Source of the DNA: Microcystis aeruginosa Ma_MB_S_20031200_S102
GTDB lineage: Bacteria > Cyanobacteriota > Cyanobacteriia > Cyanobacteriales > Microcystaceae
Direction: 5' to 3'
Length of the DNA: 50,193 nt
Assembly: GCA_007095845.1 (NCBI GenBank)
Contig: SFBI01000115.1
Coordinates: 1 to 50,193 of the forward strand
Numbering within the stretch: position 1 is the first letter of the stretch; the number at the start of each line of letters is the position of its first letter. A program made the translations under genes and the position numbers. Of the stretch, positions 557 through 41,228 are shown one piece after another. The notes beneath the pieces were generated by a model, which had not been told where the DNA came from, made no database searches, and saw only the letters and a program-made list of their open reading frames with translations.

Positions 557-901
557 ATGCCTGATTCACCAGAAGTACAACAGAACTTTAATGCACCCGT
601 TTACGGAGTAGCCGGAAAAGTTGCCGGAGACCAAATTATCTACCCCTCTTCTCAGAAGCAAGATTTAGCCGAAGCTGCCGCAGAAATTCAACGATTACTC
701 AAGCAACTGGAAGAGACAAATCCCACTGCGACGGAAAAACAAAAGGAAGCTTACATCAATGCGGCGGTGTCAACTCCCATCAGAAAGCGATTGCTAGGCG
801 CGGTGACATCAGGGGGAAAAGCTGCCCTTGAGGAATTTCTAGATAATCCTTACCTCAATGTAACAATGGCTTTAATTGAAGGTTGGAAAACAGCAGAGTA
901 G
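557..901 (+). CDS. Small cyanobacterial protein sharing an N-terminal motif with the adjacent NLR-like protein
   Basis: 114 residues. Residues 8-26 read QNFNAPVYGVAGKVAGDQI, and almost the same motif (QNFNAPVSGVAGVVHGDQN) opens the NB-ARC protein encoded immediately downstream. Residues about 33-114 are predicted mostly helical and begin DLAEAAAEIQRLLKQLEE. This resembles a small helical domain I recall from many cyanobacterial proteins of unknown function. The stop lies 55 bp before the next start, so the two genes are probably one transcript. A shared short terminal motif in a small protein next to an NLR is the arrangement expected of an effector or adaptor that pairs with a sensor, for example through amyloid-like signalling motifs. 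That role is inference. No enzymatic motif is visible. Confidence 0.75.
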   Translation: MPDSPEVQQNFNAPVYGVAGKVAGDQIIYPSSQKQDLAEAAAEIQRLLKQLEETNPTATEKQKEAYINAAVSTPIRKRLLGAVTSGGKAALEEFLDNPYLNVTMALIEGWKTAE

Positions 902-940
902 TATCAGGATGGGTTACAAACCTATTCTATCAATGTGGCA

Positions 941-947
941 AAGGAGG
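941..947 (+). promoter_or_regulatory. Shine-Dalgarno sequence that sets the NLR start
   Basis: AAGGAGG lies 9 nt before the ATG at 957 and supports that codon as the start. The upstream in-frame ATG at 876 would overlap the preceding gene and add 27 residues unlike anything in the family. Confidence 0.8.
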
Positions 948-956
948 CATCCGACA

Positions 957-3308
957 ATGGCAGAAGAGTCCAAGATTGAGCAAAACTTCAACGCACCAGT
1001 TTCTGGCGTTGCTGGAGTTGTACATGGCGACCAAAATATCCATATCCATCCTCCTGCAATTCCCCAAGCGGAAAAACCAGCAGAATCGCCGAATAATCTC
1101 AATCGGGCGCGTACTGGGGCGGTTAATTTCGTGGGGCGTGAAGATGCAATGACACAACTGCACCACCAGTTACAGCAACAAGAAAGAATTGCGATTACCG
1201 CCGTCGTGACGGGAATGGCAGGAGTCGGTAAGACAGAGTTAGCACTCCAGTATGCGCTATATCATAAGAAAAAATCGACTTATCCCGGCGGTATTTGTTG
1301 GATAGGGGTGCAAGCGGAAACGGTGGGGGTACAACTATTAAATTTTGCTAAGTCGCTGTTGGGTTTGTTTCCCCCTGAAGATTTGAATTTGCGGGAGCAA
1401 TTGGATTATTGTTGGGCGAGATGGCAACCGCCGGGGGATGTACTGCTAATTTTAGATGATGTGCATCAGTATGAGGAAATCCAAGATTATTTGCCTCCCC
1501 AAGAACAACGCTTTAAGGTATTGATTACGACGAGGCAACATTGGCTGGCGGCATCTTTTGAGCAGTTGCGCTTACCCGTTTTAAGCGAATCAGCCGCCCT
1601 TGCTTTACTGGAATCTCTGATTGGTGCGTCGCGTCTGCAAGCTGAATTAGAGATAGGGAAGGGGTTATGTGCGTGGTTGGGGTATTTGCCTTTAGGGTTG
1701 GAATTGGTGGGGCGTTTCCTCAAGCGGCGTACTAATTGGACATTGGCGAGGATGCAGCAGCAGTTGATAGATAAGGGTTTACAGTTGTCAGCATTGCAGA
1801 ATCCATCGGCAGATATGACGGCGCAAAGAGGGGTAGAGGCAGCTTTTGAGGTGAGTTGGGATGAGTTAAATCAGCCAGCGCGGGATTTAGGCTGTTTTCT
1901 CAGTCTCTTTGCGTTGGCTCCTATTCCTTGGCGGTTGGTGATAGAAAGGTGTTTGTCGGCTGAAGATGAGGAGGAGTTGGAGGATATTAGAGAGGAGCAA
2001 TTACTCAATCTTCATCTGTTGCAAGCAGTAGAAGGAGAAGTTTATCAGTTTCATCCGTTGGTGCGACAGTTTTTTCAAGCTAAGTTAGCACTGCGAGAGG
2101 ATGGGGATGAGTTGAAACGCTCCTTTTGTCGGGGTATGGTTGAGGAGGCAAAGACTATTCCTCAAGATTTAACCAAGGAGCAAGTAGAAGCCGTCGCCCT
2201 ATCTATTCCTCATATTGCGGAGTCAGCGACAGCGTTGGAACAATGGCTGAAGGATGAGGGTTTAATCCCGTCTTTTGAAGGATTGGGGTATTTCTATCAT
2301 GGGCAGGGATTGTACGAACAAGCTGAACCTTGGTTTAAGCAATGTCTAGAAGTAACTCGCTGCCACTTTGGAGAGGAACATCCCGATGTTGCTACTTCCC
2401 TCGACAATTTAGCATTCTTGTATAAATATCAAGGAAGATACGAAGAAGCAGAACCCCTCTATTTACAAGCTTTAGAATTGAGGAAACGACTATTAGGGGA
2501 GAATCATCCTGATGTTGCTACTTCTCTCAACAATTTAGCAACATTATACGATTCCCAAGGAAAGTATGAAGAAGCAGAACCCCTCTTTTTACAAGCTTTA
2601 GAATTGAGGAAACGACTATTAGGGGAGAATCATCCCCATGTAGCCACTTCCCTTAACAATTTAGCACACTTGTATCATTTACGAGGAAAGTATGAAGAAG
2701 CTGAACATCTCTATTTACAAGCTTTAGAATTGAAGAAACGACTATTAGGGGAGAATCATCTTGATGTTGCTACTTCTCTCAACAATTTAGCATTTTTGTA
2801 CAATTCTCAAGGAAAGTACGAAGAAGCTGAAGCCCTCTATTTACAATCTTTAGAATTATTAAAACGACTATTAGGGGAGAATCATCCCAAGGTTGCATCT
2901 TCCCTCAACAATTTAGCATTTTTGTACAATTCTCAAGGAAAGTACGAAGAAGCAGAACCTCTCTTTTTACAAGCTTTAGAATTGTTTAAACAACTATTAG
3001 GGGAGAATCATTCCGCTGTTGCTACTTCTCTCAACAACTTAGCAAGATTGTACAAATCCCAAGGAAGATACGAAGAAGCAGAACCTCTCCATTTACAAGC
3101 TTTAAAATTAAGGGAACGACTATTAGGGGAGAATCATCCCCATGTTGCTATTTCTCTCAACGATTTAGCAGAATTATACCGTTCTCAAGGAAAGTACAAA
3201 GAAGCGGAACCTCTCTATTTACAAGCTTTAGCAATTGCCGAGCAAGCTTTAGGGGAGAATCATCCTACTACTGTTAAGATTCGGGAAAACTTAGAGTCGC
3301 TCCCGTAG
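957..3308 (+). CDS. NB-ARC/TPR STAND ATPase (bacterial NLR-like)
   Basis: 783 residues from the ATG preceded by AAGGAGG. Order of parts: short motif QNFNAPVSGVAGVVHGDQ at about 9-26; NB-ARC with P-loop GMAGVGKT (86-93), Walker B LLILDDV (163-169), sensor TTR (191-193) and GLPL-like LGYLPLGLEL (about 253); winged-helix region with FHPLVRQF in place of plant MHD; then eight kinesin-light-chain type TPRs of 42 residues each from about 433 to 770. STAND proteins of this build act as switch-like sensors that oligomerise on ligand binding, and many bacterial ones are antiphage or cell-death proteins. There is no effector domain in the chain. The neighbouring 114-residue protein with the same N-terminal motif is the obvious candidate partner. 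The TPR DNA is very repetitive (126-bp units), which suggests recent expansion. Confidence 0.88.
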   Translation: MAEESKIEQNFNAPVSGVAGVVHGDQNIHIHPPAIPQAEKPAESPNNLNRARTGAVNFVGREDAMTQLHHQLQQQERIAITAVVTGMAGVGKTELALQYALYHKKKSTYPGGICWIGVQAETVGVQLLNFAKSLLGLFPPEDLNLREQLDYCWARWQPPGDVLLILDDVHQYEEIQDYLPPQEQRFKVLITTRQHWLAASFEQLRLPVLSESAALALLESLIGASRLQAELEIGKGLCAWLGYLPLGLELVGRFLKRRTNWTLARMQQQLIDKGLQLSALQNPSADMTAQRGVEAAFEVSWDELNQPARDLGCFLSLFALAPIPWRLVIERCLSAEDEEELEDIREEQLLNLHLLQAVEGEVYQFHPLVRQFFQAKLALREDGDELKRSFCRGMVEEAKTIPQDLTKEQVEAVALSIPHIAESATALEQWLKDEGLIPSFEGLGYFYHGQGLYEQAEPWFKQCLEVTRCHFGEEHPDVATSLDNLAFLYKYQGRYEEAEPLYLQALELRKRLLGENHPDVATSLNNLATLYDSQGKYEEAEPLFLQALELRKRLLGENHPHVATSLNNLAHLYHLRGKYEEAEHLYLQALELKKRLLGENHLDVATSLNNLAFLYNSQGKYEEAEALYLQSLELLKRLLGENHPKVASSLNNLAFLYNSQGKYEEAEPLFLQALELFKQLLGENHSAVATSLNNLARLYKSQGRYEEAEPLHLQALKLRERLLGENHPHVAISLNDLAELYRSQGKYKEAEPLYLQALAIAEQALGENHPTTVKIRENLESLP
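2280..3290 (+). repeat. 126-bp tandem coding repeats (TPR array)
   Basis: Eight in-frame 126-bp units encode the 42-residue TPRs. Some stretches are identical between units: the block from TTACAAGCTTTAGAATTGAG to GGGGAGAATCATCC occurs at about 2464-2510 and again at about 2590-2636. Closely similar units recur in the separate TPR gene at 3854-4291. High DNA identity points to recent duplication or gene conversion. Confidence 0.85.
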
Positions 3309-7833: not shown

Positions 7834-8151
7834 TCAAATATTACTGGAAAAAAATACTTTCCAAGCGGCCGTAAAAATGGCACTCCCCAAAAGGATGATT
7901 AATGTCCAGACCTGATTTTTTTGGGTTCCTTCCACTGATTTTAGCCGATTGTCGATGCCTTCGATTTTCTCGTCTAAAACTTTAATATCTCCTTTTATAT
8001 CTGCTTGTCCTATCTCAAGTTTTGTTAAGCGATTATCTAATCGATCAAACCGTTCATCAATCTTATCGAATTTCTGGCTAACTTCCTTGATACTGTCTTT
8101 AATTTCTTTGAGGACGACATCAAGGGAATAAGTAACAGTTTCGTTAGACAT
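7834..8151 (-). CDS. Coiled-coil/membrane-anchor protein, tandem copy 1 (intact)
   Basis: 105 residues. The first 80 form heptad-patterned coiled coil (KFDKIDERFDRLDNRLTKLE, then VLDEKIEGIDNRL). A single hydrophobic helix (VWTLIILLGSAIFTAAW) sits near the C-terminus, which ends KVFFSSNI. It resembles XhlA/Bdr-like small coiled-coil tail-anchored proteins only in general build. AGGAG lies 8 nt before the ATG. Four copies of this gene lie in tandem to 9212; copies 1 and 4 are intact. The function is unknown. Confidence 0.75.
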   Translation of the reverse strand: MSNETVTYSLDVVLKEIKDSIKEVSQKFDKIDERFDRLDNRLTKLEIGQADIKGDIKVLDEKIEGIDNRLKSVEGTQKNQVWTLIILLGSAIFTAAWKVFFSSNI

Positions 8152-8264
8152 TTGGTAAACTCCTATACTGCATCCAGTTGGATATAATTTTATCTCAAGT
8201 CTAGGCTTTAAGAAAATTTTCTTTCAGGAGCGGTTAACTGTAGTTTTGTTGATAATTAGAAAGA

Positions 8265-8470
8265 TCAGATATTACTGGAAAAAAATACTTTCCAACCGGC
8301 CGTAATAATGGCACTTCCCAAAAGGATAATCAATGTCCAGACCTGATTTTTTTGGGTTCCCTCTACCGATATTAGCCGATTGTCGATGCCTTCGATTTTC
8401 TCGTCTAACACTTTAATTTAATTTCTTTGAGGACGACATCAAGGGAATAAGTAACAGTTTCATTAGACAT
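8265..8470 (-). pseudogene. Coiled-coil/membrane-anchor gene, tandem copy 2 (deleted and frameshifted)
   Basis: Begins MSNETVTYSLDVVLKEIK as in copy 1, then an internal deletion joins directly to the codons for IKVLDEK in a shifted frame, giving a stop after about 21 residues. The downstream part still spells the conserved GTQKNQVW-to-SSNI anchor in the other frame. The lost segment is most of the coiled coil. The upstream sequence with AGGAG is retained. Confidence 0.85.
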
Positions 8471-8582
8471 TTAGTAAACTCCTATACTGTATCCAGTTGG
8501 ATATAATTTTATCTTAGTCTAGGCTTTAAGAAAGTTTTCTTTCAGGAGAGGTTAACTCTAGTTTTGTTGAGAATTAGAGAAC

Positions 8583-8823
8583 TCAGATATTACTGGAAAA
8601 AAATACTTTCCAAGCTGCCGTAATAATGGCACTTCCCAAAAGGATAATCAATGTCCAGACCTGATTTTTTTGGGTTCCCTCTACCGATATTAGCCGATTG
8701 TCGATGCCTTCGATTTTCTCGTCTAACACTTTAATCGTTAACCCGCTTCTCAAGCGAGTCAATCTTCCCCTCAATCCTTGTGAGGACAGCTTCTAGGGAA
8801 TAAGTAACAGTTTCGTTAGACAT
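8583..8823 (-). pseudogene. Coiled-coil/membrane-anchor gene, tandem copy 3 (frameshifted)
   Basis: From the ATG at 8823 it reads MSNETVTYSLEAVLTRIEGK and then about 10 residues to a stop at GATTAA. The remaining codons, VLDEKIEGIDNRLISVEG through SSNI, are intact in another frame (8583-8774). The N-terminal part is closest to copy 4 (LEAVLTRIEGKID). A deletion between the two halves broke the frame. Confidence 0.85.
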
Positions 8824-8936
8824 TTGGTAAACTCCTATACTGCATCTGGTTGGATATAATTTTATCTTAAGTCTAGGCTTTAAGAAAATTTTCTTTCAGA
8901 AGCGGTTAACTGTAGTTTTGTTGAGAATTAGAGAAC

Positions 8937-9212
8937 TCAGATATTACTGGAAAAAAATACTTTCCATCCGGCCGTAATAATGGCACTCCCCAAAAGGATG
9001 ATTAATGTCCAGACCTGATTTTTTTGGGTTCCCTCTACCGATATTAGCCGATTGTCGATGCCTTCGATTTTCTCGTCTAACACTTTAATATCACCTTTGA
9101 GATCGGTTAATCCTATTTCTACTTTTGTCAAGCGCTCATCAATTTTATCGATCTTCCCCTCAATCCTTGTTAGGACAGCTTCTAGGGAATAAGTAACAGT
9201 TTCGTTAGACAT
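8937..9212 (-). CDS. Coiled-coil/membrane-anchor protein, tandem copy 4 (intact)
   Basis: 91 residues: MSNETVTYSLEAVLTRIEGK start, shorter coiled coil than copy 1 (KIDERLTKVEIGLTDLKGD), the same IKVLDEKIEGIDNRL core, and a C-terminal anchor helix ending KVFFSSNI. Its upstream region (AGGAGTTTAGCCA before the ATG) matches those of the other copies, so each copy carries its own promoter region. The coiled-coil length difference of 14 residues, two heptads, between the intact copies suggests slippage in heptad repeats. Confidence 0.75.
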   Translation of the reverse strand: MSNETVTYSLEAVLTRIEGKIDKIDERLTKVEIGLTDLKGDIKVLDEKIEGIDNRLISVEGTQKNQVWTLIILLGSAIITAGWKVFFSSNI

Positions 9213-30778: not shown

Positions 30779-33550
30779 TCAAAGCCCTGGGGAGACACAC
30801 GCAACCCGAAAACCGAGGTTGCCGCTGACGACGTCGGGGTTGATCCTGCCGCGGTCGGCAGAACGACAGACATAAGGGTAGTTGAGCCAAGAACCGCCGC
30901 GCAGTACACGGTATCGTTTATCTGTCAAGAGTTTTTTTGTACTAATTGATAGGTTTTGATAACGATTATCATTATTGTCTTCGTCCCAAACGCTTCCGTC
31001 TCTCGGCGGCTCACCTTGATAATTCTCGTGCCACGGATCTAAACACCATTCCCAGACATTGCCGTGCATATCGTACAGCCCGAAGGCATTGGGGGAAAAT
31101 TGTCCCACGGGAGTCGTTTGTTGTCGATATTCTCCTGTGGGTTCATCGGCATAAGTTTTAGTACCTCGATAGTTAGCTAAATCTGCCGTTATCGTTTCCC
31201 CAAAGTGAAAGGCGGTTGTTGTCCCCGCTCTACAGGCATATTCCCATTCTGCCTCACTCGGTAGTCGATACTCCCGTTTTGTTTCCCTTGATAGTCGTTT
31301 ACAGAATTCCGTTGCTTGATACCAGTTGACTTTTTCTACGGGTAGCTCATCCCCTTTGAAGCGAGAAGGGTTTGTCTTCAGGTCGATGTCTATTTTAGCG
31401 GTTGCGGCGATAGCTTGCCACTGAGCTTGGGTGATAGGATAACGCCCCATGTAGAAAGAGGAAACGGTTACTCGGTGTGGGGGTTGTTCTCGTGTAAATC
31501 CATCCCAACCAAATTTTTTAACCAGTCTTTCGATTTCCTCATATTCCGTTCCCATCCAAAATTCTCCTTGGGGAATATACATCATGCGGATATAGTTTTG
31601 AGCTTTTTTCTGGTTGCCAACTTCCGGAAGATTTTCATCGTAAAAATAGGCTTTAACAGGTTTTCTCTCGATAACTTGACCTTTTTCATTAACCAATACC
31701 GTTTCTGCGGTAAAAAGGAAAAGGTTTTCATTGTAGGGAACAATAGCGGCTACTTTGTCTATTAAATGTTTTTGTAGGGTTCCTTCGTCTTCTGGGGAAA
31801 GTTGAAGGACATTGCCAACGTGGTTTAAATCCCCTCTAGAATAGGCGGCGATCGGTTCATTAAGCAATAACAAGGGTTCATAATCGGCTAAAGCAGCGGA
31901 TATATTTTCTAATAAAGCTGTCAATCTCACAAGACGCACTCGGTTATTATTTTTGATAGCTTCTGCTAGTACCTGTTTGATTTCATTGACTGCTTGACTG
32001 GGTTTTAGGTAGGCAAGAGCTAACCATTGTTGATTTTGCCAATAAACCGATTGTGAGCAATAATCACCGATTTGTTCCTGAATATAGGTTTGTAACTTAT
32101 AGGCCAGAGATTTGAGTTCCTCTGGGGTTAATTTTTCTAATAGTAGTTTACGAACATCGGGAGACATTTCATAAAGTTCTCGATCTATTTTGCGGACTAA
32201 ACTGGAGAGTAAAATATCAGCGATCGCATACCAGGGAGCTTGATTATTTTTATCTTGATGTTGACGCAGATAATAAAGTAAATTAGGGGATAAACTAAGG
32301 GGAAAAGCCGCTCGTTTCGCTAGTTCTCTGGTGTTTAGTTCGGTTTCTTCTTCAAATAATCTTAAACGGCTTTTTGCGCTAAAAAAATCTTCATCCTCAT
32401 CCCAATTATCCCCTTGTTGAAATTGATTAGGATTAAATGGAAAATGACGGGGTGGGATAGCTTCTTCTTTTAGCCATGTTATCAAGTTTTCCCAATCCTC
32501 TGTGGTTAGTTCAAACATGGAAAAATTGGGTATATCTTCAGCTAAATCAGCAATATCGATCGCAGTTGTCCCATACCATCGATGATAGGGTAAGGGGTTT
32601 AACCATGCGACTCGGCTAAATCTTCGGCTAAATCGTCGGATAAAGGTTTCTGTTGCGCTCAAGCGCTCTTCTACATAACGTTTTCTAGCGGCACCTGCAT
32701 CACTAAGAATTAGACAACTGGTTACTTCAGGAGAATAGTTAGAGAGAACTTTGCTTAAAGATTGACTTTCCCAACCGTTTTCTTGTCGTGAAACCTCGTC
32801 TCTAATCAGATTATCAAAGTAAAAATGGGGAACATTTGCCCACGTTTGCTTCATTATCCGACCAAATCCTGCAAAGGGAATCATCGAGTCAGAACAATCA
32901 ATAAAAATTATAATTTTTCGGCGATAAAGTTGTTTCTTTTGGTAAATTATTTGGTCAAAAAAACCTCTTTTAGCCGTTGCCATCACCGTAGCTTTTATAT
33001 CCCAAGTTTGTCGAGGATTTTCTAGGGGTAATGGACGTAGTTGCTGCCAACTTTCTTGTAACTTAGCGATGCCAATAGGATAATAATCAGGATTATCTAG
33101 GAATGTGATTTTTTTTCGCTTTTCAATAGCTGTGGCAATTTGTGGAAATGAAGTCTCCGGTGCTATTTGTCTGTCCCCCGGAGGGGTAATTTCTAATGAG
33201 GTAGATTCCCTATCATCCATCGGGTTTATGATTTTGCTAATCGATTCTTCTGGATGGCGAATAGGTGTTTTTTGGGCTATTTCTGTATTTATTTCTGGTT
33301 GGAATTGTAGCATCTCTGTCCAGACCTGATCAAACTTTTGTTTTTCTTCTAGGGATTTAACCCATAAAGCTTGACAAAGAAGTTTAATTTTATGATTCTC
33401 TAAGTTGGGATTCTCTTGAATAGCAATATCAGAATCATTGGCGAGTTTTTGAATCAGGTAATTTTCCACCCGATAATATTGTTCAATAGACAGCAGAAAT
33501 CCTTCTTCGTCTCTGAGGTGATAAAATAGGTCAAGTAGGGGGGATGTCAT
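30779..33550 (-). CDS. vWA protein fused to an FGE-like domain
   Basis: 923 residues. After a helical N-terminus and linker, a vWA domain carries the MIDAS motif in IIIFIDCSDSMIPF (about 213-226) and the later Asp in CLILSDAGAARK. A helical middle follows. Residues about 653-920 are an FGE/SUMF1-like fold: MMYIPQGEFWMGTE, HRVTVSSFYMGRYPITQAQW, EYRLPSEAEWEYACRAGT, GLYDMHGNVWEWC and RVLRGGSWLNYPYVCRSADR. True FGEs have two cysteines in the last segment; here the first is Asn, so sulfatase activation is unlikely. Last gene of a three-gene operon, 8 bp after the MoxR stop. vWA proteins commonly act as adaptors for MoxR ATPases. Confidence 0.88.
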   Translation of the reverse strand: MTSPLLDLFYHLRDEEGFLLSIEQYYRVENYLIQKLANDSDIAIQENPNLENHKIKLLCQALWVKSLEEKQKFDQVWTEMLQFQPEINTEIAQKTPIRHPEESISKIINPMDDRESTSLEITPPGDRQIAPETSFPQIATAIEKRKKITFLDNPDYYPIGIAKLQESWQQLRPLPLENPRQTWDIKATVMATAKRGFFDQIIYQKKQLYRRKIIIFIDCSDSMIPFAGFGRIMKQTWANVPHFYFDNLIRDEVSRQENGWESQSLSKVLSNYSPEVTSCLILSDAGAARKRYVEERLSATETFIRRFSRRFSRVAWLNPLPYHRWYGTTAIDIADLAEDIPNFSMFELTTEDWENLITWLKEEAIPPRHFPFNPNQFQQGDNWDEDEDFFSAKSRLRLFEEETELNTRELAKRAAFPLSLSPNLLYYLRQHQDKNNQAPWYAIADILLSSLVRKIDRELYEMSPDVRKLLLEKLTPEELKSLAYKLQTYIQEQIGDYCSQSVYWQNQQWLALAYLKPSQAVNEIKQVLAEAIKNNNRVRLVRLTALLENISAALADYEPLLLLNEPIAAYSRGDLNHVGNVLQLSPEDEGTLQKHLIDKVAAIVPYNENLFLFTAETVLVNEKGQVIERKPVKAYFYDENLPEVGNQKKAQNYIRMMYIPQGEFWMGTEYEEIERLVKKFGWDGFTREQPPHRVTVSSFYMGRYPITQAQWQAIAATAKIDIDLKTNPSRFKGDELPVEKVNWYQATEFCKRLSRETKREYRLPSEAEWEYACRAGTTTAFHFGETITADLANYRGTKTYADEPTGEYRQQTTPVGQFSPNAFGLYDMHGNVWEWCLDPWHENYQGEPPRDGSVWDEDNNDNRYQNLSISTKKLLTDKRYRVLRGGSWLNYPYVCRSADRGRINPDVVSGNLGFRVACVSPGL

Positions 33551-33558
33551 TGGCTTTT

Positions 33559-34530
33559 TTAACCTCTTGTTCCATAATCTTGTAAATCAGTACGGCTTTT
33601 TAGTAAAACACTAGCGTGGGGTAATTTGTCTTTTTTTAATTTGGCGATAATTTCTTCAGGTTTGTACTTGAGTAACGATTTAAACCAGGCTATTAATTCA
33701 CTTGTGCTAACTTTTTTTTCTCCTTCAGATTTAGTCTCGTCTTGTGATGTTCTCACTTCCAGAAAACGGTCCACTGCTTTGATGATAACCTCTTGTTCAG
33801 CGTCGGTAAACCGTTCGGTTAATATTTTTCTTAATCTTTCTTGGTTGGGTAGCTCAATATAGTGATAAATGCAACGTCTCAGAAAAGCATTGGGTAAGTT
33901 TTTTTCTTGATTACTGGTAATTATAATCAGAGGAAAAGCTTGATCATTTGCTTGAATTAAATCTCCTGTTTCTTTAATGAAAAAACGACGAGATTCAATG
34001 GCTAAAAGTAAATCGTTAGGAAAATCTCGATCTGCTTTATCTATTTCATCAATTAATACTACCGATTGTTCTTGCTTATCTTGACTTTGTTTAAATGCTT
34101 TACCCAAGGGTTGTAAATCAAACCAATCCTTTGAAGTAGCTGGATTTTTTTGCTCAGAAGAAGATTCTTCTATTTCTTCTTTGCTTAAAATTCCGCTAAT
34201 TTGAGCAGCTTGTAAACGACCAATATAATCATATTGATAGAGACTATCTTCCGCTTTACTTGTAGATTGAACTATCCACTCATAATATTTTATAAAACCA
34301 CTTTGCTGACCATTATTAAACTCATAAACTAAAGCATGAGCTAAACGACTTTTGCCACATCCCGGTTCACCTTCTAGTAACAAAGGCATTCCCAATTCAA
34401 TAGCCAAGTTAACAACTTCTATTAACTCATCACCTGCGTCATAGGGATAAATTTTCTGTTGAATTGGTTCATAATAAAGATCCGATTTGGGTTGAATTTT
34501 TCCCGTGTAGGTTAAGGATAGTTTAGCCAT
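33559..34530 (-). CDS. MoxR-type AAA+ ATPase
   Basis: 323 residues. Walker A EGEPGCGKSRLAHAL (about 53-67), Walker B VVLIDEIDKADRDFPNDLL (about 156), sensor 1 PLIIITSNQEKNLP, Arg finger FLRRCIYHYIELP. The insert before Walker B (IGRLQAAQISGILSKEEIEE) is long. MoxR ATPases work with vWA partners to remodel or activate other proteins, and here the partner is encoded directly downstream. The start overlaps the upstream gene end by 19 nt, so translation is coupled. Confidence 0.9.
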   Translation of the reverse strand: MAKLSLTYTGKIQPKSDLYYEPIQQKIYPYDAGDELIEVVNLAIELGMPLLLEGEPGCGKSRLAHALVYEFNNGQQSGFIKYYEWIVQSTSKAEDSLYQYDYIGRLQAAQISGILSKEEIEESSSEQKNPATSKDWFDLQPLGKAFKQSQDKQEQSVVLIDEIDKADRDFPNDLLLAIESRRFFIKETGDLIQANDQAFPLIIITSNQEKNLPNAFLRRCIYHYIELPNQERLRKILTERFTDAEQEVIIKAVDRFLEVRTSQDETKSEGEKKVSTSELIAWFKSLLKYKPEEIIAKLKKDKLPHASVLLKSRTDLQDYGTRG

Positions 34531-35870
34531 CTATTTTCCCTCGATAATTGTCCTTTAAATTGTTGATAAAAAGCGTTCAGTGTCTTTTCTCTGTCGCCTT
34601 GATTGCTATTTTCCCATAATTCCTGCAAGGTAGATTTAAATAAGTCTGTGGTTTTATCCTGTAAGTCACAACCTAACTGAAGTTGTTGAGCAAAAATAGG
34701 AATAATTTCCTGAAAAGACCCTTGTTCAAAGGGAGAGTCAATCTGTAAGCAGTGAATAGGACTTAATTCTGATAATTTGTCCTTATCTCTCCAATCATTA
34801 CTTTTTTCATTATCTAAATCTAACCAAATCATTAATAAAAAGCCCGGAATGGGACTATTTTGTATTTTACTAGCTTTTTTGGTTAAATTTTGCCAAAACG
34901 AATCAATGTCCTTTAAACGGGAAAAGTCTGCACAATCAATTCCTTCAAAAATCAAACAAAAATTATTAGTCTTTAAATTTTTAATTCCTCCAGAATTATT
35001 GAAAAAATGTTCATGAAGACTATAGCTATCCCATTCTTCCTGACCATCTCCTTGAAACTTAAAAACAATAGGTTTAACGGGCAAATTATTAGTGATCAAG
35101 ATTTGTTCGTGTAAACGACGCAAACACCAAAAACGATATGTATGAGGACAAGGGGGAATATAAATAGTACCTTCTCGTAAAGGTTTAGCGGCTATTTTAT
35201 TAGTAAAATTTACTAGATTAGTGTAATTAAATTCTGTTGTCAAAACATGATAAATTTTTTCATTATTTGTTCGTTGATTTTTTGGGTTTTGATGATGATT
35301 TTGACAACATTCTAAGCTGTCAAAATCTAGTCCTAATACTTCGCAATAAGCTTGAACAATATAAGACTGTTTAGAGGTTCGCCCTTTTTTTCCTAGTCCA
35401 TATTTTTTTTCAGTACAAAACCGCAAACTATCTGTAGATATGCCAATTACCTTTAAAATAGACAAATCTAATAGATAATTAATATCTGCTAAGGTTAAAT
35501 GAATTGAATTATCATTAATATCTTCAATTCTGTACGCGCTTTTCTTCTGATTTTCAAATTTTTTAAAATCAGATTCATTTTGTAAGTACAATTTCTTCCC
35601 ATCTGTTTTTAAAACGTCTTTAGTTGTTCCGGATTGTGGCGATAGTGTCATCCAAGCTTTCAAGACATTTAATGGAATGGTATAACTGGAAGTTTCTGTT
35701 TGACTACGGTATTCTTCGAGAAATGCCTCAAGTAACCATCGACTTGCTTCTATTAATATTTGCTCTGTTTTCTCCGAAGCACAAAAATAGTTTCCCTTAT
35801 AAGCATCTTTAGCCTTACGAAGGGTTTCCACATCTTCATCCGATAATCTGATTTCGCCAGACCTTAACAT
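34512..35870 (-). CDS. Unrecognised protein, first gene of the MoxR-vWA-FGE operon
   Basis: 452 residues from the ATG at 35870; a TTG at 35882 would add four. I do not recognise it. N-terminus (to about 200) is polar and helical with a KKYGLGKKGRTSKQSYIVQA basic stretch. The C-terminal 230 residues alternate strands and helices in a P-loop-NTPase-like order: PVKPIVFKFQG, FCLIFEGIDCAD (Walker-B-like), GFLLMIWLDLDNE, HCLQIDSPFEQGSF. No Walker A is visible. This could be a degenerate STAND-like domain, a class reported in bacterial conflict systems; that is inference. It is coupled to the MoxR gene by a 19-nt overlap, so it is probably the substrate or effector of the ATPase-vWA pair. Confidence 0.6.
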   Translation of the reverse strand: MLRSGEIRLSDEDVETLRKAKDAYKGNYFCASEKTEQILIEASRWLLEAFLEEYRSQTETSSYTIPLNVLKAWMTLSPQSGTTKDVLKTDGKKLYLQNESDFKKFENQKKSAYRIEDINDNSIHLTLADINYLLDLSILKVIGISTDSLRFCTEKKYGLGKKGRTSKQSYIVQAYCEVLGLDFDSLECCQNHHQNPKNQRTNNEKIYHVLTTEFNYTNLVNFTNKIAAKPLREGTIYIPPCPHTYRFWCLRRLHEQILITNNLPVKPIVFKFQGDGQEEWDSYSLHEHFFNNSGGIKNLKTNNFCLIFEGIDCADFSRLKDIDSFWQNLTKKASKIQNSPIPGFLLMIWLDLDNEKSNDWRDKDKLSELSPIHCLQIDSPFEQGSFQEIIPIFAQQLQLGCDLQDKTTDLFKSTLQELWENSNQGDREKTLNAFYQQFKGQLSRENRWLNYP

Positions 35871-35996
35871 AAATCTCGTCAAACGTCAACCTACCATCTG
35901 ATCCACTTTTTGATCCCCTTTTGCCAGCATTTGCTTAAAGCATTTTAATCAACTTGTCCTCAAAAAACAAGCCATAAGGCGAAAGGAGCAAAATCT

Positions 35997-36173
35997 ATGA
36001 ATTTCTGGCAAAAACATAAAGCGGACATTGACGTGATTTGCCGCATCATCACCACTTTAACTGCCTTGGCTAGTTTGGGTGTTCAAGTGGGAGAGTTAAA
36101 GATTCCCCAAAGCGAGATTCCCCCTATCACTGAGGTTCAATTGGAAGCGGGGAAAAACACTCACATCCAGTAA
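35997..36173 (+). CDS. Small single-helix membrane peptide, divergent to the MoxR operon
   Basis: 58 residues from the ATG at 35997, with AAAGGAG (35982-35988) 8 nt upstream. Basic N-terminus (MNFWQKHKADIDV), one hydrophobic helix (VICRIITTLTALASLGVQV, about 13-31) and a polar tail ending NTHIQ. The strong ribosome site and a terminator 24 bp downstream support a real gene. It lies divergently next to the MoxR-vWA-FGE operon, about 125 bp from its first start. It may be a membrane effector or a sensor peptide, or be unrelated; no family is recognised. Confidence 0.6.
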   Translation: MNFWQKHKADIDVICRIITTLTALASLGVQVGELKIPQSEIPPITEVQLEAGKNTHIQ

Positions 36174-36196
36174 ATGAAGATAAATGCTAGGTATTT

Positions 36197-36234
36197 AAGC
36201 ACATTACCTGAAATAAAGGCCGATGTGCTTTTTT
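36197..36234 (+). terminator. Terminator after the small membrane peptide gene
   Basis: AAGCACAT (36197-36204) pairs with ATGTGCTT (36223-36230), with further CC/GG pairing inside and a six-T run at 36229-36234. It follows the 58-residue gene by about 24 bp and could also end the convergent ndhH transcript. Confidence 0.7.
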
Positions 36235-36291
36235 CATGAGACTGGGCCAAAACGAGGGTGAGTTAATAAGATAACCCACCCTGAAGGAGAT

Positions 36292-37476
36292 TTAGCGATC
36301 GACTGACCCCATAATAATATCAATACTGCCTAAAATCGCCATAATATCGGCAACTTTTACCCCTTTGAGGATATGAGGCAGAATTTGAAGATTATTAAAA
36401 TCGGCGGCCCGAATTTTCCAACGCCAAGGGAAAACATCATCATTACCGACGATAAAGATACCTAATTCCCCTTTACCACTTTCCAAGCGCACATAATGTT
36501 CACCTTTAGGAATCTTAAAAGTGGGGGCGACTTTTTTGGCGATATATTGATAGTCAAAATCATTCCAAGCTGATTTTTTCCCTTCTGCCATCCGTTTCGC
36601 TTCCAGATTTTCGTAGGGACCACCGGGTAAACCTTTCAGTGCTTGCCGGATAATCTTCACCGATTCGCGCATTTCCCGAATCCGCACCAGATAACGAGCA
36701 AAACAATCGCCGGCGGTTTCCCAATGCACTTCCCAGTCAAAATCGTCGTAACACTCGTAATGGTCAACTTTTCTTAAATCCCATTTCACCCCAGAAGCGC
36801 GTAACATCGGACCGGATAAACCCCAGTTAATCGCTTCATCTCTGGTAATGCAGCCTACCCCTTCAATACGACGGCGGAAAATCGGGTTATTAGTGATTAA
36901 TTTCTCGTATTCGTCCACTTTTGGGTCAAAATAGTCACAGAAATCCACGCACTTATCCACCCATCCGTAGGGTAAATCTACCGCCACGCCACCAATGCGG
37001 AAATAATTATTATTAATTAACCGCATTCCCGTGGCAGCTTCCCAGAGGTCATAAATCATCTCCCGTTCCCGGAAAATGTAGAAAAAGGGAGTTTGTGCGC
37101 CTACATCCGCCATAAAGGGACCTAACCAGAGTAAATGGTTAGCGATGCGGTTGAGTTCCAACATAATCACCCGGATATATTGCGCTCGTTTGGGAACGGC
37201 GATATCGGCTAATTTTTCGGGAGCATTGACCGTAATCGCCTCATTAAACATCCCTGCGGCGTAATCCCATCGACTAACGTAGGGAACGTACATGACATTA
37301 GTGCGATTTTCGGCAATTTTTTCCATGCCCCGATGAAGATAACCGATCACGGGTTCACAGTCAATCACGTCTTCCCCGTCAAGGGTGACGATTAAGCGCA
37401 AAACTCCGTGCATTGACGGGTGATGGGGTCCCATGTTTAAAACCATGGGTTCTGTTCTCGTTTCAATTTTTGCCAT
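36292..37476 (-). CDS. ndhH: NAD(P)H-quinone oxidoreductase subunit H
   Basis: 394 residues from the ATG at 37476, the standard NdhH length; a farther upstream start (37542) would add 22 non-homologous residues. It is the 49-kDa-type subunit of the NDH-1 complex, which carries photosystem I cyclic and respiratory electron flow at the thylakoid. Marks: [58 protein letters not shown], and the C-terminal IIMGSVDR. It appears intact. Confidence 0.97.
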
Positions 37477-37554: not shown

Positions 37555-37640
37555 ATCAGTAATCAGTAATCAGTGATCAGTAATCAGTAATCAGTAATCA
37601 GTAATCAGTAATCAGTGATCAGTAATCAGTAATCAGTAAT
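37555..37640. repeat. Heptamer array (CAGTAAT)n
   Basis: About 12 copies of CAGTAAT with occasional CAGTGAT, starting 79 bp upstream of the ndhH start codon. Confidence 0.9.
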
Positions 37641-37738
37641 CAGGAGACAGGAGTCAGGATTCAGGAGTCAGGAGTCAGGAGACAGGAGACAGGAGACAGG
37701 AGTCAGGAGTCAGGAGTCAGGAGACAGGAGTCAGGAGA
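37641..37738. repeat. Heptamer array (CAGGAGA/T)n
   Basis: About 14 copies of CAGGAGA or CAGGAGT with one CAGGATT, directly following the CAGTAAT array in the same register. Confidence 0.9.
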
Positions 37739-38005
37739 TTATTTTTATTTATTCTCCCCACTACCCCACTACCCCACTTCCCCATTTCCCCATTTCCCCA
37801 TTTCCCCATTTCCCCATTTCCCCACTTCCCCACTTCCCCACACCCCACTTCCCCACTTCCCCACTTCCCCACTTCCCCACTTCCCCACTTCCCCACTTCC
37901 CCACTTCCCCACTTCCCCACACCCCACACCCCACACCCCACACCCCACACCCCACACCCCACACCCTCTTTGAAGTCAGGAGATTATTTTTATTTATTCT
38001 CCCCA
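37730..38005. repeat. Direct repeats flanking the C-rich array
   Basis: The sequence GTCAGGAGATTATTTTTATT then TATTCTCCCCA occurs at about 37730-37760 and again at about 37975-38005, on both sides of the C-rich array. A diverged copy with a C-rich tail lies near 41418. Confidence 0.85.
37755..37966. repeat. C-rich array of CCCCAYTT octamers and CCCCACA heptamers
   Basis: Starts with CCCCACTA, changes to CCCCATTT, then CCCCACTT octamers, then about seven CCCCACA heptamers at the end. This is the only array here whose main unit is 8 bp rather than 7. Confidence 0.9.
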
Positions 38006-38011
38006 TTTCCT

Positions 38012-38044
38012 AATTCATAATTCATAATTCATAATTCATAATTC
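38012..38044. repeat. Heptamer array (AATTCAT)n
   Basis: About 4.7 copies of AATTCAT. The complementary run ATGAATT occurs near 19765. Confidence 0.85.
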
Positions 38045-38258: not shown

Positions 38259-41228
38259 GTGGTTATCCAAATCGACTCAACTCAAAACTACGAAACCAAA
38301 ACCCAAGAGATCGCTAGACAACTTTTAGCCGAAACTCGCGAAAAAAAAGGTCTTTGGTCTGCTTTACAGGATCAAATGCGTTGGGATGATAAATTACTCG
38401 ATTGGGCCATGTCTAACCCCAATTTACGAGTACAATTATTCCGTTTTATTGACTGTTTACCCGCTCTACGCAGTAATGCCGAGATCGCTAATCATCTCCA
38501 ACAATACCTCGGTGATGCTTCCGTAGAACTGCCCAGTGCGCTGAAAAGTATCCTCAACTTTAGTGATCCTAACTCCCTACCGGCTCAAACGGCCGCCAGT
38601 GTGATCAGTAAATCCGTAGAAACCTTAGCTCGTAAGTATATCGCTGGGGAAGACCTAGGGCAAATTACTCGCACTGTCACCCGTCTGCGGAAGGAAAAAA
38701 TGGCTTTTACTATAGATCTCCTCGGTGAAGCGGTAATTACTGAAGCGGAAACCCAAGTTTATCTACAAAGTTATCTCGATTTAATGACCCATTTGGCTCA
38801 AGAAGCGAGCAAATGGAACAAAGTTAGCCAAATTGATGAAGCGGACGGCGACTTATTACCACAAGTGCAGGTTTCTGTCAAGCTAACTGCCTTTTATTCT
38901 CAGTTTGATCCCATAGATCCCATTGGTAGTAAGGAAAAAGTTTGCGATCGCATTCGCCTACTATTGCGACGCGCTCAGGAGTTAGGGGTAGCAGTCCATT
39001 TTGATATGGAACAGTACGTTTATAAAAACCTCACCCTGGCTATCCTGAAAGAATTACTCCTAGAAGAAGAATTTCGCAGTCGTACCGATATTGGTATCAC
39101 CCTACAGGCATATTTAAGAGATTCTGCCCAAGATTTACAAGATTTAATTAATTGGGCTAAAAAGCGCGGTTATCCCCTGACTGTCCGGCTAGTCAAAGGT
39201 GCTTACTGGGATCAGGAAACGATTAAATCTCGGCAAAATCATTGGCCACAGCCGGTATATAACGAAAAATCAGCCACTGATGCCAATTATGAACGGATGA
39301 CGCGGTTATTATTGGAAAATCATCAATATTTATACGCTGCTATCGGTAGTCATAACGTGCGATCGCAAGCTTTGGCTTGTGCGATCGCAGAAAGTTTAGA
39401 AATTCCCCGTCGTCGCTTTGAAATGCAGGTATTGTACGGCATGGGCGACCAATTAGCCAAAGCCTTAGTGAAGCGGGGTCATCGGGTGCGGGTTTATTCC
39501 CCCTACGGACAACTTTTACCCGGTATGGCCTACCTAATCCGCCGTTTATTAGAAAATACTGCTAATAGTTCCTTCCTACGGCAAAATTTGGAGGATCGTC
39601 CCGTGGAAGATTTAATCGCAGCCCCCCGGGTTTTAGGCAATGATAACCCGATTATCGCCGGTTTTCCTAATGCCCCCGATACAGATTATGCCAACGAGCA
39701 ATTAAGAAATAAAGCGAGTCAAGCCCTTACTTTTGTCAAAAATTCCCTCGGTAAGACCTATTTACCCCTAATTAACGGTGAATACGTCGCCACCAATGTT
39801 CAAATCAATTCCGTTAATCCCTGTAATCCGCAGGAAATAGTGGGAAAAGTGGGCTTAATTGAGGTGGAACAGGCAGAAAAAGCGATCATAGCGGCGAAAC
39901 AGGCTTTTCCTGCTTGGAAACGCACCCCAGTGGCTAAAAGAGCCGAAATACTGCGAAAAGCGGCAGATTTGATGGAAGCGCGACGACACGAGTTATCGGC
40001 CTGGATTTGTTTGGAAGTGGGCAAAGTTATCCAACAGGCGGATCCAGAAGTGTCAGAAGCGATCGATTTTTGCCGTTATTACGCCTCCGAGATGGAAAGA
40101 CTGGATTTAGGGCATAATTTCGACGTAGCAGGCGAGAATAATCGTTATTCCTACCAACCCCGGGGTATTGCTTTAGTGATTTCTCCTTGGAATTTCCCCC
40201 TAGCGATCGCAGTTGGCATGACAGTAGCAGCTTTAGTAGCAGGTAACTGCACGCTATTGAAACCGGCCGAGACTTCTTCGGTAATTACGGCGAAATTTGC
40301 CGAGATTCTCCTAGAAGCGGGTATTCCTGCCGGAGTCTTCCAATATATCCCGGGTAAAGGTTCCCAGGTGGGGGCGCATTTAGTTAGCCATCCCGATGTT
40401 CACCTAATCGCCTTCACCGGTTCACGAGAAGTGGGCTGTCGCATCTATACAGATGCCTCTATCGTGCAAAAGGGTCAAAAACACCTAAAACGAGTTATCG
40501 CCGAAATGGGCGGCAAAAATGCCCTAATTGTCGATGAGAGTGCCGATTTAGATCAGGCCGTTGTCGGTGCGGTTAAGTCTGCTTTTGGCTACACCGGCCA
40601 GAAATGTTCGGCCTGTTCGCGGATAATCGTTCTGGAAAGCGTCTATGATAGCTTTGTTGATCGCTTTGTCGAGGCTACCAAGTCCCTCAATATCGGGCCG
40701 ACGGATTTACCGAGTACGGAAGTAGGACCGGTTATCGACGAGAAAGCTCAAGCAAGAATTCGGGAATATATCGAAACTGGCAAAAAAGAGGCAGAATTGG
40801 CCCTAGAGATGCCGATTCCAGAGGTGGGTTACTTCGTCAGTCCCACCGTCTTTAAAAATGTTCCCCCCGATGCGGTAATAGCGATGGAGGAGATTTTTGG
40901 TCCAGTGGTGGCGATTATCAAAGTGAGTAATTTCGAGCAAGCTTTAGCTGTGGCTAACGGAACCGACTATGCTTTAACCGGTGGCTTATATTCTCGCACT
41001 CCTGCCCATATTAACCGAGCTATGCAGGAATTTGAAGTGGGAAACCTCTATATTAACCGGGGAATCACCGGTGCGATTGTCTCCCGTCAACCCTTCGGGG
41101 GTTTCAAGATGTCGGGGGTAGGTTCCAAAGCAGGGGGTCCGGATTATCTGCTGCAATTCCTCGAACCTCGTCACATCAGCGAGAATATTCAACGTCAGGG
41201 ATTTGCACCGATTGAAGGGGCCGATTAA
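38259..41228 (+). CDS. putA: Bifunctional proline dehydrogenase / P5C dehydrogenase
   Basis: 989 residues from the GTG at 38259 (no ATG nearby; no strong ribosome site). It oxidises proline to glutamate in two steps. PRODH part (about 60-460): FAD-barrel marks such as TVRLVKGAYWDQETIKS and QVLYGMGDQLAKAL. Aldehyde dehydrogenase part (about 505-975): ISPWNFPLAIAVG, FTGSREVG, the general base Glu in VIAEMGGKNALIV, the catalytic Cys in GYTGQKCSACSR (about 783), and EEIFGPVVAI. The N-terminal DNA-binding domain of enteric PutA is absent, so it should not be autoregulatory. Single gene. Confidence 0.96.
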   Translation: MVIQIDSTQNYETKTQEIARQLLAETREKKGLWSALQDQMRWDDKLLDWAMSNPNLRVQLFRFIDCLPALRSNAEIANHLQQYLGDASVELPSALKSILNFSDPNSLPAQTAASVISKSVETLARKYIAGEDLGQITRTVTRLRKEKMAFTIDLLGEAVITEAETQVYLQSYLDLMTHLAQEASKWNKVSQIDEADGDLLPQVQVSVKLTAFYSQFDPIDPIGSKEKVCDRIRLLLRRAQELGVAVHFDMEQYVYKNLTLAILKELLLEEEFRSRTDIGITLQAYLRDSAQDLQDLINWAKKRGYPLTVRLVKGAYWDQETIKSRQNHWPQPVYNEKSATDANYERMTRLLLENHQYLYAAIGSHNVRSQALACAIAESLEIPRRRFEMQVLYGMGDQLAKALVKRGHRVRVYSPYGQLLPGMAYLIRRLLENTANSSFLRQNLEDRPVEDLIAAPRVLGNDNPIIAGFPNAPDTDYANEQLRNKASQALTFVKNSLGKTYLPLINGEYVATNVQINSVNPCNPQEIVGKVGLIEVEQAEKAIIAAKQAFPAWKRTPVAKRAEILRKAADLMEARRHELSAWICLEVGKVIQQADPEVSEAIDFCRYYASEMERLDLGHNFDVAGENNRYSYQPRGIALVISPWNFPLAIAVGMTVAALVAGNCTLLKPAETSSVITAKFAEILLEAGIPAGVFQYIPGKGSQVGAHLVSHPDVHLIAFTGSREVGCRIYTDASIVQKGQKHLKRVIAEMGGKNALIVDESADLDQAVVGAVKSAFGYTGQKCSACSRIIVLESVYDSFVDRFVEATKSLNIGPTDLPSTEVGPVIDEKAQARIREYIETGKKEAELALEMPIPEVGYFVSPTVFKNVPPDAVIAMEEIFGPVVAIIKVSNFEQALAVANGTDYALTGGLYSRTPAHINRAMQEFEVGNLYINRGITGAIVSRQPFGGFKMSGVGSKAGGPDYLLQFLEPRHISENIQRQGFAPIEGAD

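Follow-up and report, generated by a model that had tools for sequence, protein, structure and literature searches.

We analysed a contig of 50,193 nucleotides from Microcystis aeruginosa Ma_MB_S_20031200_S102 (SFBI01000115.1; this whole stretch is called the window) and focused on four genes at its positions 30779-36234: three minus-strand genes encoding a MoxR-type ATPase, a vWA-FGE fusion protein and a third protein, and a divergent small open reading frame (ORF). Judged by profile comparison and a structure model, the locus is an iSTAND-type MoxR-vWA ternary conflict system, since its third protein is a divergent inactive STAND. In addition, the substitutions in the last ~33 codons of the vWA-FGE gene have the signature of mutagenic retrohoming driven by a diversity-generating retroelement (DGR). 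Our best reading, to which we assign a probability of about 0.62, is that a DGR-tuned sensor would gate a membrane-acting response through an iSTAND-type MoxR-vWA switch. The class is already known; this member of it is new.

Results

The third protein (452 aa, minus strand, 34512-35870; assigned by profile and fold comparison) consists of an N-terminal helical region and a C-terminal inactive STAND/AAA+ core at about residues 201-449. Profile-profile comparison with inactive STANDs gave probabilities of 98.1 and 96.5, a structure model of moderate quality adopts an AAA+ fold at residues ~206-380, and no P-loop is found at the aligned position. Relatives of this protein were reached only through the vWA part of its partner, which is homologous over ~570 residues to the vWA genes of operons whose third protein matches Pfam iSTAND. 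When the third protein alone served as query, searches of families, solved structures and genomes returned no relative outside Microcystis, Pfam and PADLOC assigned it no family, its best NCBIfam match is at chance level (E 0.096), and an AlphaFold model built from five near-identical rows has a predicted local distance difference test score (pLDDT) of 41. A plasmid search with the L201 third protein gave no match. A preliminary description of this DNA, made from the sequence alone, had pointed to STAND and VMAP folds for comparison; the first is borne out by the data above, and VMAP was rejected, the window protein having no VMAP match.

Beside this inactive STAND, the locus has a MoxR with intact NTPase motifs and a CoxE-type vWA protein with a variable C-terminal domain, which supports the MoxR/vWA three-component conflict-type system that the preliminary description had proposed. 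The MoxR-type AAA+ ATPase (323 aa, minus strand, 33559-34530; defined by its ORF, Pfam and motifs read in the sequence) shows Walker A GEPGCGKS and Walker B VVLIDEID and matches Pfam AAA_5 (E 1.8e-11) and AAA (E 8e-8). PADLOC gave only weak matches on the window.

The vWA-FGE protein (923 aa, minus strand, 30779-33550; defined by its ORF and Pfam domains) is arranged as a CoxE-like N-terminal part, a vWA domain bearing the DxSxS-type motif FIDCSDSM (read in the sequence), a linker and an FGE/C-type-lectin domain at about residues 656-917. Pfam recognises FGE-sulfatase (E 2.3e-51), and VWA_CoxE only at E 0.0014, below the Pfam cut-off. The FGE domain matches solved structures of PvdO, of TvpA (a DGR variable protein) and of FGEs; at the two places of the solved FGE 31dc that we take to be catalytic cysteines the window protein has N and P, and one of these places is occupied by S in 31dc. 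From its sequence, we conclude that the domain is a binding fold, that is, a DGR-diversified recognition domain, and not an FGE enzyme. Its earlier description as merely FGE-like was incomplete and had missed the variable region.

This variable region, together with its 3' constant segment, covers 125 nt (minus strand, 30781-30905) and aligns without a gap to a template, TR2, with 20 mismatches, of which 19 lie at template adenines. Within a 104-nt core, all 18 mismatches fall at template adenines and are distributed 9/9/0 over codon positions 1/2/3; for a 90-nt core, the adenine bias has a hypergeometric p of 5e-11. The TR2 template reads LRGGSWNNNPNNCRSANRNRNNPDNDNNNNGFRV and the window variable region reads LRGGSWLNYPYVCRSADRGRINPDVVSGNLGFRV. 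TR2 was found by a pattern search across 12 Microcystis genomes and belongs to another Microcystis species (G002), where it lies after a target gene, Avd and a reverse transcriptase (RT) gene. The genome of the window (draft G000, 4.57 Mb in 219 contigs, the window being contig C19) has a resident DGR on contig C9, with one RT, Avd and a different template, TR1, made of asparagine codons. As a template for the window, TR1 fits poorly (17 adenine and 12 other mismatches, with a 3-base gap) and was therefore rejected in favour of TR2. The protein thus has the 3'-terminal adenine-biased region of a DGR variable protein, and a cognate set of RT, Avd and template was not found in the same genome. 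Since TR2 was not found in the G000 assembly within 3 mismatches of the pattern, an absence that a draft of 219 contigs leaves unproven, the window sensor tip is probably frozen or imported.

The third protein is present in 6 of the 12 Microcystis genomes, namely the window genome and five others (G003, G005, G006, G010, G011), and clear copies of the divergent peptide occur in the same six and in none of the six non-carriers. In the carriers, MoxR and vWA-FGE accompany both genes in the same order beside ndhH, with the third gene broken across two contig ends in G005; the operon is also held by records named M. viridis, M. wesenbergii and M. aeruginosa. Within Microcystis, the four genes occur together as one unit, and the co-occurrence on which the preliminary description had staked its reading is thus found within the genus. 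One non-carrier, G008, has a peptide-like ORF (36% identity, E 0.06) next to a pentapeptide-repeat-like gene; we did not count this weak match, as no MoxR operon is present in the surrounding 10.9 kb.

The ndhH gene itself is found in 12/12 genomes, and the site beside it has other content in all five non-carriers with a readable flank (in G008 the contig ends early and the flank is unreadable). In G009, this site (L165, 6168-8088) holds a caspase (Peptidase_C14) ORF that overlaps an FGE variable-region ORF in another frame. Because ndhH is universal in this set, the third protein is present in only half of it and the site can hold other content, we conclude that what lies here is a presence/absence island rather than an operon for NDH-1 assembly. 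The operon could otherwise have been taken for a housekeeping cofactor-insertion chaperone of the CoxD/CoxE or NorQ/NorD type, with ndhH as client and the peptide as assembly factor, given that MoxR-vWA pairs do so in known cases, that the only Pfam match of the vWA is VWA_CoxE and that ndhH adjoins the locus. The presence/absence pattern, including the caspase/FGE pair that fills the slot in G009, largely refutes this explanation, a hypermutated domain would be unexpected in an assembly factor, and we regard it as highly improbable.

The orthologous vWA-FGE genes do not all end alike. The end is of the TR2 type in the window and G003, and fits better to TR1 in G005, G006, G010 and G011. Across the six orthologues, synonymous divergence (pS) is ~0.04-0.16 in columns 1-660 and 0.24-0.55 in columns 661-900, and in columns 901-960, which include the variable region, non-synonymous divergence (pN, 0.305) exceeds pS (0.25). 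This pattern is consistent with an FGE module that paralogous copies have replaced repeatedly, on a vWA chassis that is conserved. A single chassis that bears, depending on the species, variable regions from one or the other of two DGR families is a feature we did not find described.

A search for template-like sequences in the genus returned 50 matches, and the 30 with loci were scored; these include TR2 and two TR1-type templates, and 13 of them (the window included) are variable regions of the TR2 type that align without a gap and have no more than 3 mismatches away from adenines. An RT gene lies beside a template-like copy in four of the 12 genomes only (G000, G002, G003 and G009), so that by this test four of the six operon carriers show no DGR RT, among them G011, which is assembled in two contigs. 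Identical variable-region peptides, over the stretch compared, were seen in L137 (G011:C1:4462671) and L162 (G002:C1:229081), and likewise in L142 (G001) and L144 (G004). It is as if some DGR-written tips were both fixed and shared. As for the resident DGR on contig C9, its neighbouring target (L034, 488-4240 and 6505-6621) ends abnormally right after RGGSW, the downstream flank of TR1 differs from the 3' ends of TR1-type variable regions, and transposase-like ORFs (by eye) lie near; this DGR looks impaired. The G000 genome has 22 FGE-sulfatase matches in all, one being the template itself, and four other MoxR-vWA-FGE loci in it carry VMAP-C. In G010, a 1421-aa ORF (L077, C165, 2893-7158) contains five tandem FGE/C-type-lectin domains, each with a variable-region-like end by eye.

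The three minus-strand genes overlap or almost abut one another: the MoxR ORF overlaps the third gene by 19 nt and the vWA-FGE start lies 8 nt past MoxR. The divergent ORF (58 aa, plus strand, 35997-36173) begins 126 bp from the ATG of the third gene, which confirms the earlier outline of three coupled genes with a divergent 58-residue ORF. This ATG gives the 452-aa product, with a TTG at 35882 as a possible alternative start. The intergenic region (35871-35996) is almost identical across the six genomes compared. An AGGAG ribosome site lies just 5' of the peptide ATG, and folding places a terminator-like hairpin with a T run 3' of the ORF (plus strand, 36197-36234; for 36170-36242, fold z -3.28, with 2/200 shuffles folding equally well). 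The ribosome site and the hairpin of the preliminary description therefore hold, but a stricter terminator scan of 35800-36300 found nothing, as did a promoter scan of the same interval.

The ORF product has a predicted membrane helix at about residues 11-29 and a short acidic tail. With a 19-residue Kyte-Doolittle mean of 1.72, this helix shows no more than moderate hydrophobicity, so that the single-helix membrane peptide described earlier is a prediction. The peptide has no Pfam family at E 1 and no PADLOC family, and is not CyanoTRADDas_TM (PF20712). Its pN/pS is 0.54 over 15 pairs, a figure with few substitutions behind it; this value and the conservation in five other Microcystis genomes argue that the four-gene arrangement is not due to chance. 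Its predicted hydrophobicity, its linkage and the recurrence of such ORFs at the same place are the sole grounds for proposing that the peptide acts on the membrane.

To assess this recurrence, we scored 31 third genes (the window, 28 of 34 fetched loci and two of four plasmid loci), of which 17 lead their operon. Six fetched loci (L221, L223, L227, L229, L230, L232) and plasmid locus L235 were dropped for having no MoxR-plus-third pair by motif, and plasmid locus L238 was read but kept out of the survey. With a divergent membrane-type ORF defined as 45-110 aa, with a 19-residue stretch of mean ≥1.6 and within 350 bp, such an ORF accompanies 9/17 leading third genes versus 7/102 other leading genes of the same loci (p 1.8e-5). 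It accompanies none of the 14 non-leading third genes, at least seven of which follow a same-strand CHAT (L205, L209) or trypsin-EAD9 gene (L215, L220, L222, L225, L231); the divergent ORF thus appears where the same-strand partner is missing. Unsorted counts that do not yet include the plasmid loci were 8/29 third genes versus 5/231 other genes (p 8e-6). A first survey (8/10 versus 0/19 and 5/231) had been sorted by N-terminus after the peptides were known and was partly circular, and we therefore rely on the one sorted by gene order only. In L202 the divergent ORF is CyanoTRADDas_TM (27.3 bits, cut-off 24.3), which by its name in Pfam is connected with TRADD-N conflict systems. This ORF is the only one of eight divergent ORFs above the Pfam cut-off; the L236 ORF has no Pfam match, and NCBIfam recognised none of five.

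The peptide could instead come from an independent gene, such as one encoding a small stress protein or a toxin-antitoxin component, hitch-hiking in a variable locus, as the divergent ORFs lack a common sequence family and occur in only 9 of the 17 leading operons. We consider this rather unlikely, because clear copies are present in exactly the six carriers and none of the six non-carriers (one weak match at E 0.06), and because such ORFs recur at the same place in other genera. An Acaryochloris plasmid operon with an annotated 105-aa divergent gene also speaks against hitch-hiking; it was found after the idea of a recurrent divergent gene had been formed, and fits that idea.

Elsewhere in the window, an 810-aa ORF at 876-3308 spans seven 126-bp repeats (42 residues, TPR-like by eye; 83% matches), tandem repeats of 318 and 354 bp lie at 8098-9089 (93-95% matches), and dense 7-, 8- and 24-bp tandem repeats lie at 37555-38044, between the ndhH-like gene and a 989-aa gene at 38259.

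Discussion

The vWA-FGE protein is more likely to be the sensor than the first protein of the operon (the third component), since its FGE domain appears to be a DGR-diversified recognition domain and not an enzyme. The preliminary description had cast the first protein as substrate, sensor or effector, and of these roles that of sensor is the one our data disfavour. Within the same DGR-diversified iSTAND system, the roles might also be reversed, with the vWA-FGE domain as effector, the iSTAND protein sensing the invader and the peptide as membrane anchor or regulator. Such an arrangement would agree with the effector position given to the C-terminal domain of the vWA protein by Kaur et al. (PMC7159879), with the proposal of inactive STANDs as nucleic-acid receptors (Burroughs et al. 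2021) and with the fast evolution of the third protein (pN/pS 0.98 versus 0.36 for MoxR). We nevertheless find the reversal doubtful. Hypervariable residues in a C-type-lectin fold are a hallmark of ligand recognition, as established for DGR variable proteins, N and P occupy the places aligned to the FGE catalytic cysteines, and a sensor role is argued by Dore et al. 2024 (PMC10907252).

With the vWA-FGE protein as sensor, the three-gene switch would probably serve as an anti-invader alarm. The diversified tip would bind a ligand derived from an invader or from stress, and binding would alter the engagement of the vWA protein with the MoxR ring. Using ATP, MoxR may then remodel the vWA-iSTAND complex and so set a threshold, after which the remodelled iSTAND protein would permit a response. 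This response would act via the divergent small membrane protein, either by derepression of its gene or by action on the protein itself, and would end in membrane damage or dormancy. A helix-turn-helix (HTH)-like N-terminus, as seen in the third proteins of some relatives (L216, HTH_3, E 0.045), would allow control of the divergent promoter. The best PDB matches of a five-sequence N-terminal profile are HipB and AcrIIA15 (E 0.03), and at one DGR locus and its closest relative an HTH gene stands in place of VMAP (Dore et al. 2024, PMC10907252).

Several points weigh against this scheme. The HTH idea relies on weak scores (E 0.045 and E 0.03) and is not shown for the window protein, which has no Pfam iSTAND match either. 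Profile comparison does not link the HTH-like N-termini to those of the closest relatives, and gave no support to an HTH common to both kinds of N-terminus. The divergent ORFs share no clear sequence family, and three of the nine are doubtful (the L204 helix is at the extreme C-terminus, the L212 start is uncertain and the window helix is borderline). Furthermore, the 17 leading operons are not phylogenetically independent, and such an ORF is missing beside 8 of their third genes, among them those of L214 and L216, which are HTH-like by eye at the N-terminus.

A broader and more tentative proposal would add an unnamed fourth component to the class. In iSTAND ternary systems without a same-strand peptidase/CHAT partner, the effector might be a divergently encoded small membrane protein, with an HTH-iSTAND regulator as its gate, a DGR-randomised sensor as the trigger and membrane collapse as the outcome; sensor tips would be exchanged as cassettes among DGR families before becoming frozen. 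Conflict systems diversified by DGRs may provide bacteria with an immunity whose receptor diversity is anticipatory; those who described the systems call this role untested (Dore et al. 2024, PMC10907252). If our reading is true, the compact unit of one sensor, a switch, an iSTAND and a small membrane protein would allow the output to be tested from a single plasmid. The Microcystis genomes likewise offer a natural series, in which the same chassis carries variable-region cassettes of two kinds, either with or without a DGR resident in the genome.

Regarding known systems, CyanoTRADDas_TM (PF20712) is a two-transmembrane domain in the divergent slot of the related operon L202, whereas in the window peptide a single helix is predicted and Pfam finds no match. 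TvpA of Treponema denticola (PDB 2y3c) is a DGR variable protein with an FGE/C-type-lectin fold that matches the window domain including its tail; unlike the window protein, it is presumably not fused to a vWA.

DGR-diversified vWA-FGE proteins and the iSTAND ternary class have both been described (Kaur et al. 2020, PMC7159879; Dore et al. 2024, PMC10907252). The iSTAND ternary systems of Kaur, Burroughs, Iyer and Aravind share with our locus MoxR, a vWA with a C-terminal FGS domain, an inactive STAND third protein and a cyanobacterial host, as well as FGS diversification by DGRs whose template lies close by or at another place in the genome (stated there of VMAP systems). They differ in that the window third protein is too diverged for Pfam iSTAND, and that no peptidase, TIR or EAD gene was found beside the third gene, which has a divergent small membrane-type gene instead. 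The preliminary description had suggested that its combination of genes might be undescribed. This does not apply to the FGE fusion, as ~22% of iSTAND systems have an FGS domain (Kaur et al. 2020, PMC7159879), but it does to the recurrent divergent membrane-type gene beside the third gene, which we did not find described in the parts read of Kaur 2020, Burroughs 2021 and Dore 2024 or among the results of literature searches.

The putative antigen sensors of Dore et al. 2024 (PMC10907252) likewise combine a vWA and a variable C-type-lectin domain in one protein, with MoxR adjoining, and cyanobacterial clade 5E is described there as diversifying the sensors of ternary systems. Those systems are of the VMAP type (the VMAP domain being conserved only in a subset) and lie at DGR loci, whereas the window has an iSTAND third protein, a remote target and a template found only in another species. 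The remote cyanobacterial DGR variable proteins of Vallota-Eastman et al. 2020 (PMC7517822) resemble ours in their dispersed CLec targets and in template/variable homology far from the RT, and a loss of diversifying parts was already proposed in that work; what distinguishes the present case is that, from species to species, one orthologous operon bears variable regions belonging to either of two template families.

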